Origin: Syntrophaceae bacterium
GTDB taxonomy: Bacteria; Desulfobacterota; Syntrophia; Syntrophales; Smithellaceae
Direction: 5' to 3'
Length of the DNA stretch: 64,000 nucleotides
NCBI GenBank assembly: GCA_016927935.1
Contig: JAFGLS010000195.1
Coordinates: 1-64,000, forward strand
Shown here one piece after another: positions 2,698 through 57,644 of this stretch. The position numbers were made by a program, and so were the translations under genes. The notes under the pieces were generated by a model. That model saw only the letters and a list, made by a program, of their open reading frames with translations. It did no database searches and was not told the origin of the DNA. Positions within the stretch are counted from its first letter, which is position 1, and every line of letters starts with the position of its first letter.

Positions 2698-5355
2698 ATG
2701 ACGGAAAAGAATAAAACACCACTGGTGGCTCTTGTTGACGGCAGTAATTATATCTACCGCGCGTTCTTTGGGCTGCCGCCTTTGACAAATTCCAAAGGTT
2801 TTCCCACCAATGCCATCTACGGTTTTACCAACATGCTTCTGAAGCTCAAGCGTGATATTGCGCCGGACTATATCGTGGTTACATTTGATTTAAAAGGACC
2901 GACCACGCGCCACGAAGAGTTTGAAGATTACAAGGCGACGCGCAAGCCAATGCCCGATGATCTTACCCCCCAGATACCTTTTATTAAGGATATTGTCCGC
3001 GGTTTTTCCATTTGCATTCTGGAAAAGCAGGGGACGGAAGCCGATGATATTATAGGGACGCTCACTGTCCGGGCAAACAAAAAAGGCTGGCGCACCGTCA
3101 TTATTTCCGGCGACAAGGATTTGATGCAGCTTGTTGATGAAAATGTTTCTATGGTTGATACGATGAAGGACAAAACCTATGACGCGGCGGCAGTGAAAGA
3201 AAAATTCGGAGTCGGACCGGATAAAGTGGTGGAAATTCTGGGATTGATGGGCGATACATCCGATAATATTCCCGGTGTACCCGGCGTTGGCCCCAAAACG
3301 GCACAAAAATTAATCGAAGAATACGGAACACTTGAGAAAGTTATCAGAAACGCGGAAAATTTAAAAAACGTCAAGCTGCGCGAGAGTCTTATCAAGTATG
3401 CCGAGCAGGCCCGCATGAGCCGACATCTTGCCAATATCAGAAAAGATATTGAAATTGATTTTGATTTTCAGGACGCGGCAGTCAAAGAGCCGGACAAAGA
3501 AATTCTTACCAAGCTTTTCAGTGAATTTGAATTTTCCTCCCTTTTACGGGAGATAAAGCAAGAAAATGTAAGGCGGGACAAAGAATACAAACAGATTCCG
3601 GACAAAAAAACTCTGAATGAACTTATTGCTCATCTAAAAAAAGGTCATGAAATTTCCCTGGAAGTGATCTGGGAAAAAAGTCCAGCGGCGGATTTAATCG
3701 GTATTGCCATAAGCGCGGGCAAAGAATCTTTCTATATTCCGGTTGGACACACCAAAGTCCAGACACAGTTATCACTTAAGGAAGTGTTGGCCGCCCTGTC
3801 TGATATTTTAAACAGCTCCAGGATAAAAAAATATGTCTATGATTTGAAAACAGCGCTTATTTCTATAGATGATTTTGAAGTCCAGTCCGGCGAGGATCTG
3901 CAATTGGTCGCTTATCTGCTTAATCCGGCAAGATATTCCTATGAACTTGATGAAATTGTCTGGGAATATCTCCACGAACGCATTCCCACACTCAAAGATC
4001 TTGCCGGCGAAAAAGAAAAGACACTTTCATTGGCGTTAGTGCCTCTGGAGAAAATGACGGCGTATGCGGGACAACGCGCGGATGCTATTCTTGAACTGGC
4101 GCCGGAGATAATCGCCCAGTTAAAGAAAATAGATGCCCTTGAGCTTTACATCAAAGTGGAGATGCCGCTACTGCATGTTCTTGCCGATATGGAAAAGAAA
4201 GGCGTGCTGATAGACACAAAAATTTTAAAACAAATGTCCACGGATTTGGGACAGTTGATGTCCATTTCTGAAGAAAAAATCCATCGCCTGGCCGGAGAAA
4301 AATTCAATATCAATTCGCCCAAACAGTTGCAGAGTATTTTATTTGAAAAGCTAAAACTGCCTGCAGGAAAAAAAACAAAAGAAGGTTATTCCACCGACGT
4401 GGATGTACTCACCGATCTTGCCCGCAGCCATGAACTGCCCGCGGAAATTCTTGCTTACCGCTCTCTGGCTAAGCTCAAGTCAACTTATGTTGACGCCCTT
4501 CCCGCCTTGATTAATCCGCAGACGGGAAGGATTCATACTTCTTATAATCAAACGGTGACAGCCACCGGAAGGCTCTCCAGCTCCAATCCCAACCTGCAGA
4601 ATATTCCCATCCGAACGCTGGAAGGCAAAAGAATCCGTCAGGCTTTTATCGCCGATCCGGATTGTCTTTTGATTTCCGCCGACTATTCCCAAATCGAGCT
4701 GCGGGTTCTGGCGCATTTGTCGAAGGACAAAGCGCTGATTGACGCCTTTGCTTCCGACGAGGACATTCACACCCACACGGCAACAGATGTTTTTGGAGTT
4801 TTTCCGCAAATGGTTAATGCCGATATGCGCCGTCAGGCCAAGGTTATCAACTTCGGCATTCTTTATGGAATGAGCGCTTTCGGCCTGGCTAAGGAACTGG
4901 GCGTATCCGTGAAGACCGCCCAGGAATACATTGAAGGATATTTTCAGCGTTACAAGAAGGTGCGTATATATCTTGACGGGATTCTGGAAGACGCACGCCG
5001 TAACGGTTATGTCTGCACGCTTTTAAACCGCCGCCGCTACCTACCGGAATTAAAAAGCAAGATTCCTTCCGTGCGCCAGTTTGCCGAACGTATGGCGATA
5101 AATACCCCTATTCAGGGAACCGCCGCCGATTTGATAAAAGTGGCGATGGTGAATATTGCTGATTTGCTAAAGAAGAAAAAGCTTTCCACCCGGCTTATTA
5201 TGCAGGTGCATGACGAGCTTGTTCTGGAAGCTCCTGTAAAGGAAAAAGAAGAGGTAATGGTACTTGTCAAAAAAGAAATGGAGGAAGTGGTAAAACTTAA
5301 TGTCCCGTTAAAAGTTGAAATTGCCTCCGGCAAAAACTGGGACGAAGCCCACTGA
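2698..5355 (+). CDS. polA: DNA polymerase I with inactive 3'-5' exonuclease domain
   Basis: An 885-residue family A polymerase for Okazaki fragment processing and excision repair. The N-terminal 5' nuclease domain (about 1-290) has ALVDGSNYIYRAFFG, an acidic GTEADDIIG segment, SGDKDLMQLV and the helix-hairpin-helix region GVPGVGPKTA. Polymerase motifs are intact: SADYSQIELRVLAH (A), RRQAKVINFGILYG (B) and QVHDELVLE (C). The middle domain aligns with the proofreading exonuclease, but its catalytic acids look lost: ISLEVIWE (319-326) replaces the DxE motif, YDLKTA replaces NLKYD, and YAGQRAD replaces YxxxD. Proofreading is therefore predicted to be absent, as in several bacterial Pol I enzymes. 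The start is supported by its distance to the upstream stop and by the alignment. Confidence 0.95.
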   Translation: MTEKNKTPLVALVDGSNYIYRAFFGLPPLTNSKGFPTNAIYGFTNMLLKLKRDIAPDYIVVTFDLKGPTTRHEEFEDYKATRKPMPDDLTPQIPFIKDIVRGFSICILEKQGTEADDIIGTLTVRANKKGWRTVIISGDKDLMQLVDENVSMVDTMKDKTYDAAAVKEKFGVGPDKVVEILGLMGDTSDNIPGVPGVGPKTAQKLIEEYGTLEKVIRNAENLKNVKLRESLIKYAEQARMSRHLANIRKDIEIDFDFQDAAVKEPDKEILTKLFSEFEFSSLLREIKQENVRRDKEYKQIPDKKTLNELIAHLKKGHEISLEVIWEKSPAADLIGIAISAGKESFYIPVGHTKVQTQLSLKEVLAALSDILNSSRIKKYVYDLKTALISIDDFEVQSGEDLQLVAYLLNPARYSYELDEIVWEYLHERIPTLKDLAGEKEKTLSLALVPLEKMTAYAGQRADAILELAPEIIAQLKKIDALELYIKVEMPLLHVLADMEKKGVLIDTKILKQMSTDLGQLMSISEEKIHRLAGEKFNINSPKQLQSILFEKLKLPAGKKTKEGYSTDVDVLTDLARSHELPAEILAYRSLAKLKSTYVDALPALINPQTGRIHTSYNQTVTATGRLSSSNPNLQNIPIRTLEGKRIRQAFIADPDCLLISADYSQIELRVLAHLSKDKALIDAFASDEDIHTHTATDVFGVFPQMVNADMRRQAKVINFGILYGMSAFGLAKELGVSVKTAQEYIEGYFQRYKKVRIYLDGILEDARRNGYVCTLLNRRRYLPELKSKIPSVRQFAERMAINTPIQGTAADLIKVAMVNIADLLKKKKLSTRLIMQVHDELVLEAPVKEKEEVMVLVKKEMEEVVKLNVPLKVEIASGKNWDEAH

Positions 5356-6847: not shown

Positions 6848-7816
6848 ATGGTACGTCTCAAGAATTTATTCATTGTAATATTTAGTTTATTTTTTATTTT
6901 TATTATCTCCGCATGTGAAAATAATACCTTTTCCAAGATAAAAAAAAAGATATCTTCAATTTTCGGTGAAGACATCATATCTTTTCCTGTCGAACAAGGA
7001 GGTGGATGGGGCTTCATCGACAAGACCGGCAAATATGTAATCCAGCCGCAGTTTGAAGGTGCGGGAAGATTCTCCGATGGCTTTGCCGCTGTTAAAATTG
7101 GTGATAGATGGGGTTTCATCGACAAGACCGGAGATTATGTAATCAACCCGCAGTTTGATGTGGCGTTTTTATTCCATGACGGTCTTGCTTCTGTCGGACT
7201 TGGAGGCGATAAAATCAAAGTTGGTTTTATCAATAAAGCCGGCAAATATGTAATCCAACCGCAGTTTGATGATGCAGGATGGTTCTCCGATGGTCTTACA
7301 GCTGTTGGAAATAAAGGCAACAAACGGAAAGTCGGTTTCATCGACAAGACCGGCAAGTATGTAATCCAGCCGCAGTTTGATGATGCCGGATGGTTCTCCG
7401 AAGGTCTTGCTGCCGTTAAAGTTGGAAACAAATATGGTTATATCGACAAGACCGGCAAGTATGTAATCCAGCCGCAGTTTGAATTTGCCTTTTGGTTTTC
7501 CGAAGGTCTTGCGGCTGTCAAAAGCGGGGAAAAGTACGGTTTTATCGACAAGACCGGTAAGTATGTAATCGAGCCGCAGTTTGATTTTGAATTTTGGTTT
7601 TCCGAAGGCCTTGCGGCTGTTAAAAGTGGCGGCAAGTATGGTTTTATCGATAAGACCGGCAAATTCGTAATTGATCCACAGTTTGACATTGCGTTTTGGT
7701 ATGAAAATGGACTGGCCCCTGTTGGAGTCGGGCGTGATAAAGCTAAGATTGGTTTTATCAACAAGGCCGGCAAGTATGTAATCAATCCGCAGTTTGATGA
7801 TATTAAAGTTTTTTAA
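6848..7816 (+). CDS. WG-repeat lipoprotein
   Basis: A 322-residue protein with an N-terminal hydrophobic signal ending in the lipobox-like IISAC (Cys at about 23), so it is probably lipidated and exported. The rest is eight tandem WG (KWG) repeats of 30-37 residues, each on the plan GFIDKTGKYVIQPQFDDAGWFSEGLAAVK. The DNA of the repeats is also highly alike, so copy number may vary by recombination. AGGAGG lies just upstream of the start. WG-repeat proteins are common surface or periplasmic proteins of unknown binding target. Three long antisense ORFs in the track are products of this repetitive sequence. Confidence 0.85.
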   Translation: MVRLKNLFIVIFSLFFIFIISACENNTFSKIKKKISSIFGEDIISFPVEQGGGWGFIDKTGKYVIQPQFEGAGRFSDGFAAVKIGDRWGFIDKTGDYVINPQFDVAFLFHDGLASVGLGGDKIKVGFINKAGKYVIQPQFDDAGWFSDGLTAVGNKGNKRKVGFIDKTGKYVIQPQFDDAGWFSEGLAAVKVGNKYGYIDKTGKYVIQPQFEFAFWFSEGLAAVKSGEKYGFIDKTGKYVIEPQFDFEFWFSEGLAAVKSGGKYGFIDKTGKFVIDPQFDIAFWYENGLAPVGVGRDKAKIGFINKAGKYVINPQFDDIKVF

Positions 7817-13697: not shown

Positions 13698-14945
13698 TTA
13701 GGTGTTCATTGAATCTAAAAATTCCTGATTAGTTTCCGTTTTTTTGATTTTGCCAACGATAAATTCCATGGCGTCAACCGGATTCATTTCCTGCAGCAAT
13801 CTGCGCAGTATCCAGACCCGATTGAGGTTGTTTTTAGGAATCAGCAGTTCTTCCTTTCTGGTACCGGAACGGATTAAATCAAAAGCGGGGAAGATTCTGC
13901 GATCAGCGATACGGCGGTCCAGATGCAGTTCCATATTACCCGTTCCCTTGAATTCTTCAAAAATTACTTCATCCATGCGGCTCCCCGTGTCAATCAAAGC
14001 AGTGGAAATAATCGTCAAGCTACCGCCGTTTTCTATATTCCTAGCCGCTCCGAAGAAACGCTTCGGTTTATGCAAAGCATTGGAATCAACCCCACCGGAA
14101 AGAACCTTACCGCTGGGCGGAACAACGGTATTATAAGCCCTTGCCAGACGAGTGATACTGTCGAGTAGAATAACAACATCCTTTTTGTGTTCGACAAGGC
14201 GTTTCGCCTTTTCAATTACCATTTCCGCTACCTGAACATGGCATGTTGCCGGTTCATCAAATGTTGACGAGATAACTTCACCGGAAACACTGCGCTGCAT
14301 ATCAGTGACTTCCTCCGGACGTTCATCAATCAAAAGCACCATTAAAACAACCTCGGGATGATTGGCAGAAATGCTGTGGGCAATATCCTGCAGAAGAACC
14401 GTTTTACCGGCTCGCGGCGGAGAAACAATCAGCGCGCGCTGCCCCTTGCCGATAGGAGCAAATAAGTCCAGTGTCCTGGTGGAGTAATTTTTGGGATCAT
14501 GTTCCAAATTTAACTTTTCCAAAGGATAAAGAGGTGTCAGGTTGTCAAACAGGATTTTGTCTCGTGCCTGCTCGGGGCTTTCCGTATTTACGTTATCAAC
14601 TTTTAAAAGAGCAAAATATTTTTCCCCTTCCTTCGGTGGTCGGACTTCACCGGAAACGGTATCTCCGGTTTTTAAATTAAATCTCCTGATTTGCGAAGGA
14701 GAAATATAAATATCATCCGGACTGGGCAGGTAGTTATAATCAACTGCCCGTAAAAAACCAAATCCGTCGGGCAGAATTTCCAGCACTCCCGAACCGGAAA
14801 TAACGCCGTTTTGTTCTGCCTGTGTCTGTAAGATAGCAAAAATTAACTCCTGACGGCGCATTCCAGCGGCTCCGGGAACATCCAGTTTTTTGCCCAAATC
14901 ATTTAATTCACTGATGGGCAATCGTTTAATGTCTTCAATGTTCAT
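13698..14945 (-). CDS. rho: Transcription termination factor Rho
   Basis: A 415-residue hexameric RNA helicase that ends transcription of untranslated RNA. It has an N-terminal Rho-N domain ([21 protein letters not shown]...), the cold-shock-like RNA-binding domain ([17 protein letters not shown]), and the ATPase core with Walker [15 protein letters not shown] and [18 protein letters not shown]. It heads the rho-rpmE-prfA run. The leader upstream is about 200 nt and contains a perfect 8-bp hairpin, possibly regulatory. Confidence 0.97.
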
Positions 14946-40524: not shown

Positions 40525-40640
40525 TGATATCTTTCTTTTTATCTCTCTTAAAGGGAAACGATTTAGTGCCCCGATAACATAAAATGTAATGAAACTCAAA
40601 TATCACAAACAAAGTGCAGTAATATTTATTAGTTGAATTA

Positions 40641-40814
40641 TTCCGGGAGCGAATAACCTAAACACCCTAAAGGGTACTATAGGTTCACTATAAGCGACGT
40701 GGGATTTGAAACTTAATTTCAGCAGGACTCACTACCCTGCTTTGCTTTGCAAAGCGGGGTAGTGCCTCTTACGTTTCGAGCTTCGCATAGCTCGCTCTCA
40801 GCGAGTTTCACTAA
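40641..40814. repeat. Hairpin-plus-tail repeat region A
   Basis: It contains several short hairpins each followed by a tail like TTCACTA, GGACTCACTA, AGTGCCTCTTA and CGAGTTTCACTAA. The clearest is ACCCTGC (40734-40740) with GCGGGGT (40754-40760), loop 13 nt, tail AGTGCCTCTTA. The left part (TTCCGGGAGCGAATAACCT, and TCACTATAAGCGACG) recurs as an inverted copy at 42336-42390 on the other side of the aminotransferase gene. The remainder of the 40525-40883 gap shows no gene. Confidence 0.6.
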
Positions 40815-42330: not shown

Positions 42331-42526
42331 ATTGCAATTCCGCGTCGCCTACAGTGACTCTTAGGTTATTCAGGTTATTCGCTCCTGGAATATCCCTATC
42401 GGCAATGGCGGAAGGGACATTTCAACTTACAGACATTATCACACTTCGTTTATAATGTTTGAGTTTCATTGATTCGACTAATAAGTTTTAGTTCACTATG
42501 TTCCTAAAACTTGAGTCTCATTAGAA
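42331..42526. repeat. Hairpin-plus-tail repeat region B
   Basis: Two well-formed units lie on the plus strand. ACATTAT (42433-42439)/ATAATGT (42452-42458) has a 12-nt loop and tail TTGAGTTTCATTGA. AAGTTTTAG (42483-42491)/CTAAAACTT (42504-42512) has a 12-nt loop and tail GAGTCTCATTA. The left part is an inverted copy of region A: 42372-42390 matches 40641-40659 at 18 of 19 bases, and 42336-42360 matches at 19 of 25. The last tail reaches into the stop codon of the RRM gene. Confidence 0.65.
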
Positions 42527-55590: not shown

Positions 55591-56514
55591 TTATGGTAAT
55601 CGTAAATGGACTACCTCTCCCGGTTTCCCCAAATTTTCAACATCCTTATTTTTATATTTTATCCTAATTCCCCCGGCATTGCCAATGTCCAGATTAAAAG
55701 TTTCCGCGTTGCTTTCAAATTTTTCTCCCGGCTTTAATAAAATTTGAACTGGTGTACTTTCTCCGCCTTTTACACGAATCCATGTTTCCTGACTTGCTAT
55801 AATAAGCAAATTACTTTTTTGCGAGCCAACAGAAGCGACATGTTTTGTCTCCAACGACAATGGCAATGACGCATTTTTTTTAACTGAATTATCCATATTG
55901 GCTGTTTGTTTCAATACATTGCCGGATGTTCCTTTTTCAAATTCGCTTAATTGGAGTATGGGATCAGTTATCATTTGCTGGGGGTCTTTGAATGTCACAT
56001 TGGGTGAAGAATTTACAACTGATGTCGTATTGGATGAAGAACTTACATTTTGTTCCATGATTTCCTTAGCAGGTATATCGATTCTTTTGGAAGAGTTAAT
56101 TCCCTCAGATACCGGAGGGTTTTGCTTTAAAATCAGCCAAACCACAAAAACGGTTATGAATACAAAGAAAATCCCCCAATAATTTTTGTTGCTGACAACC
56201 GACGCAAAAAACGATTTCTCCTCCTGAGATGTCTTTCGCGGCGGTATCAATTCTTCTTTCTGTGCGTTAAGGTACGCCTCGTAATCTTTCAGGATAGGTA
56301 CTTCATCAACACCTAAAAATCTCGCATAGATCTTAATAAAATTCTTTGTATAAACGGGGTCCGGCAGCAAATGAAATTCGCTGTTTTCTATATTTTTAAG
56401 ATAGCCGGCCTTTATGCGTATTTTTTTAAATACATCGTTCAGAGAAAGACCCATCGATTCTCTTTTGGCCGTTAATTTTTGCAAACCATCAGTCGGCGTT
56501 TTTTCTACAAACAT
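55591..56514 (-). CDS. RodZ-like helix-turn-helix membrane protein
   Basis: A 307-residue protein. A cytosolic XRE-type HTH (about 15-85: ESMGLSLNDVFKKIRIKAGYLKNIENSEFHLLPDPVYTKNFIKIYARFLGVD) is followed by one membrane helix (NYWGIFFVFITVFVVWLIL). A Ser/Asn-rich linker leads to a C-terminal DUF4115 beta domain (LLIIASQETWIRVKGGESTPVQILLKPGEKF). This is the layout of RodZ, which links MreB to the cell wall machinery. Many delta-proteobacterial versions are generic HTH-DUF4115 proteins with unproven role. Confidence 0.82.
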   Translation of the reverse strand: MFVEKTPTDGLQKLTAKRESMGLSLNDVFKKIRIKAGYLKNIENSEFHLLPDPVYTKNFIKIYARFLGVDEVPILKDYEAYLNAQKEELIPPRKTSQEEKSFFASVVSNKNYWGIFFVFITVFVVWLILKQNPPVSEGINSSKRIDIPAKEIMEQNVSSSSNTTSVVNSSPNVTFKDPQQMITDPILQLSEFEKGTSGNVLKQTANMDNSVKKNASLPLSLETKHVASVGSQKSNLLIIASQETWIRVKGGESTPVQILLKPGEKFESNAETFNLDIGNAGGIRIKYKNKDVENLGKPGEVVHLRLP

Positions 56515-56639
56515 ATAAATTCACAATTGAAAATATTTTGATATGCACTTTTATCACTAATTTGATTGTAATACAACTATTTAAAATCACGGGTATAAAA
56601 CCCTGGACACGAATTCCGCCACAAGAAGTGGTGTATTCT

Positions 56640-56797
56640 ATCCATGCTTATGCAGGATAATTCGATATTCAAGTTTCAGAGTTCTCTGTTCCTGAAACTT
56701 GGATCTCATTACCCTCAGCTTTGCGGGATAATTCGGCTTACCCATTCCGATACGCTTCACTTTCGGAATTGGAGCCTCATTAAATTTGAGTCTCACA
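56640..56797. repeat. Hairpin-plus-tail repeat region C
   Basis: Two tandem units. Unit 1: GCTTATGCAGGATAATTCG, then stem AAGTTTCAG (56671-56679)/CTGAAACTT (56692-56700), 12-nt loop, tail GGATCTCATTA. Unit 2: GCTTTGCGGGATAATTCG, then stem ATTCCGA (56744-56750)/TCGGAAT (56763-56769), 12-nt loop, tail TGGAGCCTCATTA. A lone tail AATTTGAGTCTCAC follows. Leader and tail are conserved while the stems differ but remain paired. The remaining 56515-56639 and 56798-56876 show no gene. Confidence 0.7.
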
Positions 56798-56876
56798 ATA
56801 AAACCAATTATCGCTTTAACATTTTTTAATTTTATTGTTACTATTGTCTCAAAAAACAGGGCAGGAGTTTTTTTAT

Positions 56877-57644
56877 ATGTTGAAAATGAAGTCATTCGCC
56901 GTTGATTTGGCGCTTCGGGCAGGCGCTTTATTGAAAAAGAAATTCAATCAAACGCATAAAATCCATTATAAAGGGAAAATCAATATTGTCACTGAAGCGG
57001 ACGAAATGTCCGAAAATTTGATTATCGAATCAATAAGCCAAAAATTCCCCGATCATGGGATTTTATCGGAAGAATCACCGGCAATCACCGGCTCCGGAAA
57101 ACTACGTTGGATAATTGACCCTCTGGATGGAACAACAAATTACGCTCACGGCTTTCCCGTATTTTGCGTTTCCATAGCGCTGCAAAATGAAGGTGTTGTC
57201 GTTTTGGGTGTGATTTATGACCCCATGAGAAATGAATTGTTTTCTGCAATAAAAGGTAAAGGAGCTTATTTGAATGGCAAGAAAATAAAGGTCTCTTCAA
57301 TAAAAGACATTTCCCGCAGTCTGCTAGCGACGGGATTTCCTTATGATATCAGAGAAAGCAGGGTAAACAATCTTGATTACTTTAATTTGATGGCTGTAAA
57401 TGTTCAGGCAATCCGCCGCGCGGGCGCGGCAGCCCTGGATCTGGCGTATCTTGCTGCGGGCAGGTTTGACGGTTTCTGGGAATTAAAACTCAAACCATGG
57501 GATACAGCGGCAGGCTGTCTGTTGGTGGAAGAATCAGGCGGAGTTGTTTCCGACCTTTTTGGCGGCAAATGGAATATATACTCGCCGAATGTTCTTGCCT
57601 CCAATGGCCTGATTCATAAAAAGATGATGAAAGTTTTAAGTTAG
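56877..57644 (+). CDS. suhB: Inositol-1-monophosphatase family protein
   Basis: A 255-residue Mg-dependent phosphatase of the inositol monophosphatase family. The metal-site motifs are EADEMSENLI, LSEESPAITG, IDPLDGTTNYAHGFP and the C-terminal ELKLKPWDTAAGCLLVEESGG. AGGAG lies 9 nt upstream of the ATG at 56877; the track's start at 56835 has no such site. The substrate may be inositol phosphate or another sugar phosphate. E. coli SuhB also works in transcription antitermination, which cannot be judged here. Confidence 0.9.
   Translation: MLKMKSFAVDLALRAGALLKKKFNQTHKIHYKGKINIVTEADEMSENLIIESISQKFPDHGILSEESPAITGSGKLRWIIDPLDGTTNYAHGFPVFCVSIALQNEGVVVLGVIYDPMRNELFSAIKGKGAYLNGKKIKVSSIKDISRSLLATGFPYDIRESRVNNLDYFNLMAVNVQAIRRAGAAALDLAYLAAGRFDGFWELKLKPWDTAAGCLLVEESGGVVSDLFGGKWNIYSPNVLASNGLIHKKMMKVLS

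Follow-up and report, generated by a model that had tools for sequence, protein, structure and literature searches.

Several hundred short folding DNA repeats inserted between genes within one family of Syntrophales-type bacteria

What are the hairpins that recur at positions 56640–56797, and elsewhere, in the 64,000-nt stretch of a Syntrophaceae draft genome analysed here (the window)? A preliminary description had listed four main hairpins, each with a 12-nt loop and a conserved tail, and had proposed a structured RNA or a mobile single-strand DNA element of no named family. All four lie where it placed them, loop and tail included, both in the sequence and as matches to a covariance model. 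We conclude that they belong to several hundred short folding DNA repeats, inserted between genes, within one family of Syntrophales-type bacteria.

The repeated unit is larger than a hairpin and its tail. Read from genomic copies, it has a fixed length of 58 nt and runs, on the plus strand, GGGA, TAAT, TC, four variable bases, a 2-nt bulge, C plus a 9-base arm, the 12-nt loop, a 9-base arm plus G, four variable bases, TC and ATTA. The hairpin is thus a 10-bp stem with a 12-nt loop, joined through the bulge to a second 4-bp stem, an invariant 2 × 2 internal loop (TC/TC on the plus strand, GA/GA on the minus strand) and an outer TAAT/ATTA stem, and the unit ends read TAATTC ... TCATTA. Hairpin and tail, the extent first proposed, are genuine parts of the unit, but the linker 5' of the hairpin (GACC, GTCC, GGCT, AACT, CACT) also pairs with the tail (GGTC, GGAC, AGCC, AGTT, AGTG), as does TAAT with ATTA. 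Two pairs form within the 12-nt loop, so that any mini-stem there has no more than 2 bp. Most units are immediately preceded, on the 5' side, by a second hairpin, TCCC...GGGA, which we call alpha, and the units are arranged in tandem and nested arrays.

Scored with a calibrated covariance model (cmsearch, model R1), the window contains six copies (E = 1.3e-17, 5.5e-16, 2.2e-15, 6.1e-14, 2.4e-11 and 9.5e-7), and the next match has an E-value of 0.69. The listed hairpins are among these copies, but one on the minus strand at 40587–40644 had been overlooked, and the supposed fifth unit at 40734–40771 is a neighbouring alpha hairpin; the true unit there occupies 40756–40813. The units and alpha hairpins of the window are as follows.

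40587–40644, minus strand: 58-nt hairpin unit, absent from the first list (R1 69.6 bits, E 5e-16)
40641–40706, minus strand: alpha hairpin whose loop holds a nested module, CTTATAGTGAACC..TTTAGGTTATTCG (sequence reading; comparison with ATCCCACGTCGCTTTGCTCCTGGGATAATTC of L013)
40730–40764, plus strand: alpha hairpin CACTACCC...GGGGTAGTG, formerly the fifth unit (alpha-stem listing)
40756–40813, plus strand: diverged 58-nt hairpin unit (R1 34.8 bits, E 9.5e-7)
42339–42413, plus strand: alpha-type hairpin arms with a nested CAGTGA..AGGTTATTCGC module, 5' of the units (sequence reading; comparison with solo copies)
42414–42471, plus strand: 58-nt hairpin unit, stem ACATTAT/ATAATGT (R1 67.4 bits, E 2e-15)
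42472–42521, plus strand: hairpin unit abutting the 42414–42471 unit, AAGTTTTAG/CTAAAACTT (R1 52.1 bits, E 2e-11, model positions 7–56)
56645–56658, plus strand: weak alpha-type hairpin 5' of the 56654 unit, around ATGCTTATGCAGGA (sequence reading; listed alpha stems)
56654–56711, plus strand: 58-nt hairpin unit, stem AAGTTTCAG/CTGAAACTT, 12-nt loop (R1 61.9 bits, E 6e-14)
56711–56728, plus strand: alpha hairpin between two units, ACCCTCAGCTTTGCGGGA (sequence reading)
56725–56782, plus strand: 58-nt hairpin unit, stem ATTCCGA/TCGGAAT (R1 75.7 bits, E 1e-17)

A second palindromic module, CTATAGTGACC...TTTAGGTTATTCG, is nested in alpha-hairpin loops and once in the 12-nt loop of a unit; it is found at 40641–40706 and 42347–42390 of the window, in L091 (minus strand), in L117 near 14770–14800 and at L261:1180–1205. 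These nested modules look as if hairpin loops were insertion targets. Elsewhere in the window, an open reading frame at 6848–7816 has tandem repeats of ~102 and ~111 nt at 7010–7801 and probably encodes a repeat protein.

By themselves the hairpins are a weak signal: the window has 11 perfect 7-bp stems that enclose a 12-nt loop, where ~6 would be expected. Hairpin and flanks together are far beyond chance. In an alignment of 41 copies, from which the structure was read, 19 of 20 pairs have compensatory changes and 92.8% of cells are paired, against 72.2% in shuffles. The excess of compensatory changes over shuffles, which the preliminary description had proposed to look for, is large: 166 double-changed cells, a number reached by none of 500 shuffles, compared with 41.4 ± 6.4. 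Slid versions of the structure score far below the actual one for double changes. Together with E-values in the window down to 1.3e-17, these counts bear out the claim of covarying hairpins with a conserved tail.

Several unpaired letters are invariant or nearly so. Among 66 distinct 58-nt copies, the two sides of the internal loop read TC in 65 and 66, T37 is present in all 66 and C29 in 61, and the pairs surrounding these invariant letters vary, with compensation. The bulge is 2 nt in every 58-nt copy, and its letters vary. Read on the minus strand, 37 of the 66 copies have a GNA triloop at the loop tip; on the plus strand none does (0/66). Single copies folded with DNA parameters form the expected stem on both strands, with modest energies.

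How widespread are the units? A BLAST search with 56640–56797 found 45 places in the window's own draft genome (3.38 Mb, 239 contigs). The further copies that the preliminary description had suggested seeking proved numerous, at least 161 by the covariance model, and 114 copies in a 754-kb sample extrapolate to ~500 per genome, a figure that may be slightly high because contigs with matches were in part chosen. The copies are intergenic: only 10 of the 114 lie inside crude ORFs, several of which resemble start-codon over-extensions. There are 28 copies between divergent genes and 12 between convergent genes. Counting the window's genome, 33 of the 60 genomes in a search of relatives carry the family. 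It is present in all 16 same-genus relatives and is patchy across the bacterial family, with one weak match elsewhere in the order; in a phylum sample of 395 genomes the six carriers all come from that same bacterial family. An exact consensus match among genome contigs was found once, in a Syntrophaceae MAG, which helps to locate the repeat family in or near Syntrophales. Viral contigs held no exact consensus match.

Strong covariation, invariant letters in the internal loop and loop, and many copies sitting tens of bases from genes are what one would expect of a structured regulatory or small RNA, or a transcript-end hairpin, present in many copies. Against this, the units have no orientation to genes: between co-directional neighbours, 29 copies lie on the same strand and 28 on the opposite one. 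Moreover, G.T and A.C mismatches are equally common (45 versus 42, p 0.83), whereas RNA should favour G.T on one strand, so that no strand is favoured as RNA would require. Rfam gave no match at gathering score over the window and none at E 1 over 56500–56900. Recent changes, too, are almost all uncompensated: of the stem changes between copies 1–3 bases apart, 25 are single and 1 is a compensatory pair, and copies more than 20 differences apart show 8535 compensatory against 2639 single. Entire elements are also missing from orthologous sites (see below). We therefore consider an RNA very unlikely; of the two possibilities first offered, the mobile one fits better.

Perfect stems of very unlike sequence and strand-symmetric mismatches could also arise by mutation alone, if template switching in quasi-palindromes perfected stems with neither selection nor recognition. 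The 25 uncompensated stem changes against one compensated among close copies speak against such a process, as do the TC/TC internal loop and the 2-nt bulge, which persist unrepaired although template switching would tend to erase both. We regard it as highly improbable. Most simply, a unit must keep its structure to be copied, and copies decay once they have inserted. Weak constraint on each copy is possible, because per-site change in the closest copies is somewhat lower at paired than at unpaired positions. A covariance-based search would report this family as a strong new structured RNA, which would be misleading; covariation that is paired between sub-lineages and unpaired in the youngest copies offers a way to separate selection acting on the lineage that is copied from a function of the individual site.

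Mobility is demonstrated by orthologous places that lack the element. The stretch 56640–56797 that raised the question is real, but it covers the interior of a ~209-bp composite insertion rather than the whole.

56585–56587, plus strand: AAT left of the composite, its target and possibly a 2–3 bp duplication (empty sites read TTTAAAATAAAA)
56588–56796, plus strand: composite mobile element CACGGGTATAAAACCC...GAGTCTCAC, between AAAAT and AAT AAAACC (12 congeners lack it at the orthologous place)
56797–56799, plus strand: AAT right of the composite, either the element's 3' end CACAAT or duplicated target (empty-site and right-end comparisons)

In these 12 congeners the genes that flank 56588–56796 are joined without the element, and in several of them the HSP ends adjoin at query positions 3588/3798. 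The filled allele reads TTTAAAAT, CACGGG...GTCTCAC, AATAAAACC, and the empty allele TTTAAAATAAAA. Seven further composites were checked by aligning their joined flanks with relatives. Empty alleles were found for L030, L012, L011, L014 and L016 in at least one of five relatives, at (A)AT|AAA; joined-flank alignments for the L022 composite were less clean. Because precise empty sites occur in congeners, we are confident that the composites are mobile DNA.

The left flank ends in AT in nearly all composites, the right end is CAAT, and the empty sites are AAT|AAA. A 3-bp AAT duplication is not the rule, because composites with CAT, GAT or TAT as their left target still have CAAT, or something close to it, at the right end; the observations agree both with a 2-bp duplication of AT and with an element whose last bases are CAAT. 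The composite ends (CACGGGTATG and GAGTYTCAC) are not inverted repeats, and hairpins lie near both. At the L014 site, G002 has an element with the same ends and a differing interior, meaning that interiors turn over inside old insertions. The smaller alpha-hairpin units were also compared at orthologous places: one copy is in G013 and others are rearranged.

Relics of 19–29 bp at L115:19911 and in L094 (minus strand, 11752) retain both composite ends (CACGGGT...TTTGAGTCTCAC) with the interior deleted. In L193 (G016), a truncated CCCGACTCTCGGGTTTCATTA stands upstream of a CAGCCAGCGC junction where G000 has a complete unit; it is possibly a deletion relic. Left ends without a nearby right end were inspected as candidates for an autonomous version; the examined cases were truncated or contained another nested module, and none bore an ORF.

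Units that are identical, or differ at 1 of 58 positions, are found at differing places in G000 and also between G000 and G007, and near-identical copies are shared by species with gene identity of only about 75–80%. The family spreads faster than its host genomes diverge, because units of G000 and G007 can differ at 1 of 58 positions while their flanking genes are 74–77% identical. The composite had no blastn match among plasmids and phages.

Which enzyme, then, mobilises the units? Neither Y1 transposase nor integron integrase tracks them in the examined genomes. One reading is that they are REP/BIME-type repeats moved by TnpAREP (RAYT) of these genomes, with the enzyme lost or missed in some assemblies. 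The overall kind matches, with imperfect palindromes that lie between genes in their hundreds and form mosaic arrays, and there are 8 Y1 genes in the window's genome and Y1 genes in most relatives. However, the count of Y1_Tnp and the count of units give a Spearman coefficient of 0.13 (p 0.43; 37 genomes, with the highest unit counts being at least ~93), and Y1_Tnp is zero in four unit-rich genomes (G007, G011, G012 and G026, each with at least 88–93 units). G007 is 98% complete in about 10 contigs, and several of the Y1-free unit-rich genomes are near-complete. Around 52 Y1 loci, 149 kb of sequence contained 10 units, which is below background. The units also lack GTAG/GTGG 5' of the stem, and their loop is 12 nt rather than 2–5. 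The idea that a RAYT in contig C35 is flanked by units was rejected, for this gene bears its own unrelated AAGGGGGTCAAGTCTTTGC inverted repeats. Taken together, this makes a RAYT of these genomes an unlikely mover. The enzyme's absence would also be explained if it had been lost once the units had spread, or if another organism provided it.

An IS200-type TnpA in G009 was likewise discarded: its ends form an ordinary IS hairpin, with no unit. In L122, 29-nt inverted repeats AAGGGGGTCAAGTCTTTGCTTGGCTCTTG at 3460–3488 and 4508–4536 bound a Y1 gene (RAYT-like, 320 aa), and gene and repeats appear to constitute a separate transposon family. A lagging-strand single-stranded DNA mechanism predicts a replication-strand orientation bias; GC-skew orientation on the draft contigs showed no significant bias (40 versus 51 clusters, p 0.29).

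Integron integrases recognise folded single-stranded hairpins, and the units could in principle be attC-like sites spread by such an enzyme. The preference for structure over sequence is alike, and integrases are common in this bacterial family, where full-length ones (TIGR02249) exceed the cut-off in 15 of 24 genomes. Yet the unit has no RYYYAAC/GTTRRRY boxes, full integrase is missing from unit-rich G007, G009, G010, G011, G014, G022 and G026, and integrase is present in unit-free G017, G024 and G032, leaving this reading barely credible. One integrase lies at G000:C233:4134–5078 (L259), and two of four inspected integrase loci have hairpin units within about 1 kb.

We think it probable that these hairpin units make up a non-autonomous family of short mosaic palindromes, mobile and served by an enzyme in trans. 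Recognition as a single-strand hairpin is marginally favoured, and from the structure we infer a single-strand intermediate. The hairpin would be recognised as folded single-stranded DNA, probably of the minus strand, on which the internal loop reads as a tandem GA/GA and a GNA triloop often forms the loop tip. Pairing of the outer bases, TAAT/ATTA or ATTGT/ACAAT, may set the 3' cleavage site of the element, like IS200/IS605 guide sequences. If only folding lineages are copied, covariation would arise without function at each site. The enzyme would act in trans, would not be encoded by the elements and would not detectably be the Y1 transposase of these genomes; that the mover is a Y1/HUH enzyme is possible but doubtful. 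More tentatively still, the units might be substrates of a single-strand DNA recombinase or transposase that acts in trans and belongs to a new class, distinct from both Y1 and integron integrase. Such an enzyme would recognise the tandem GA internal loop, the 2-nt bulge and a loop base, and base pairing with the hairpin's 5' foot would set its cleavage site; we consider this rather unlikely. How REP-like palindromes spread without a dedicated transposase is an open question, raised for CGTC REPs (PMC3733652). The present family offers hundreds of copies, empty sites that are clean, and congeners that are rich or poor in units and have or lack Y1, so that the enzyme can be searched for by comparison.

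How does the family compare with known systems? REP/BIME-like palindromes are well known as a general kind, and the units share with REP/BIME repeats linked to TnpAREP (RAYT) their small imperfect palindromes, hundreds of intergenic copies, tandem and nested mosaic arrays and conserved unpaired stem features; CGTC REPs likewise have no known transposase (PMC3733652, PMC6006769, PMC8266576). What defines REP families is a GTAG/GTGG or CGTC tag together with a short loop (PMC3733652, PMC6006769). In GTAG/GTGG REPs the tag lies 0–2 nt 5' of a fully paired basal stem (7–20), which carries a loop of 2–5 nt or a second stem (PMC6006769). Here, by contrast, the unit is 58 nt with a 10-bp stem, a 12-nt loop, a 2 × 2 TC/TC internal loop and a 2-nt bulge. 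The complement CTAC stands at positions 14–17 in 2 of 66 copies (TTAC in 19, TTGC in 9, others in the rest), the conserved unpaired letters are TC/TC, C29 and T37 rather than CGTC, and neither a preference for convergent positions nor an association with Y1 genes is seen. The absence of a named family, as first stated, thus holds for Rfam and for the GTAG-tagged definition of REPs but not for the general kind. A literature search found no published description of this family, which is weak evidence given that most subscription-journal papers and preprints lay outside its reach. REPINs, too, are miniature non-autonomous palindromic mobile DNA with decaying copies and arrays; our units differ in that they are not two inverted REP 16-mers, covary through all stems and have no linked RAYT (PMC3116915).

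IS200/IS605 elements rely on guide sequences, located 5' of the hairpin, to select where cleavage occurs (PMC8266576). Like derivatives of these elements, the composites have subterminal hairpins, no terminal inverted repeats and a fixed short target immediately 5' that resembles their 3' end, and the outer pairing, which joins 5' foot and 3' end, could serve as a guide. They differ in carrying no TnpA or TnpB, in not needing Y1 to be present (Y1 TnpA is absent from the four genomes named above) and in their composite mosaic interior. As to the lagging-strand orientation of such elements, the draft contigs gave 40 versus 51 clusters (p 0.29). MITEs of DDE transposases fit poorly: there are no inverted repeats and a 3-bp AAT duplication fails at CAT, GAT and TAT left flanks, although a 2-bp AT duplication fits. 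Integron attC sites are likewise single-strand hairpins conserved in structure, variable in sequence and furnished with unpaired conserved bases, but the units lie outside cassette arrays, lack the R/L box consensus and the GTT cleavage site, and do not co-vary with integrase. Because the tag and the short loop of REPs are both missing, we do not class the family as REP, though it behaves like a BIME-type mobile palindrome.
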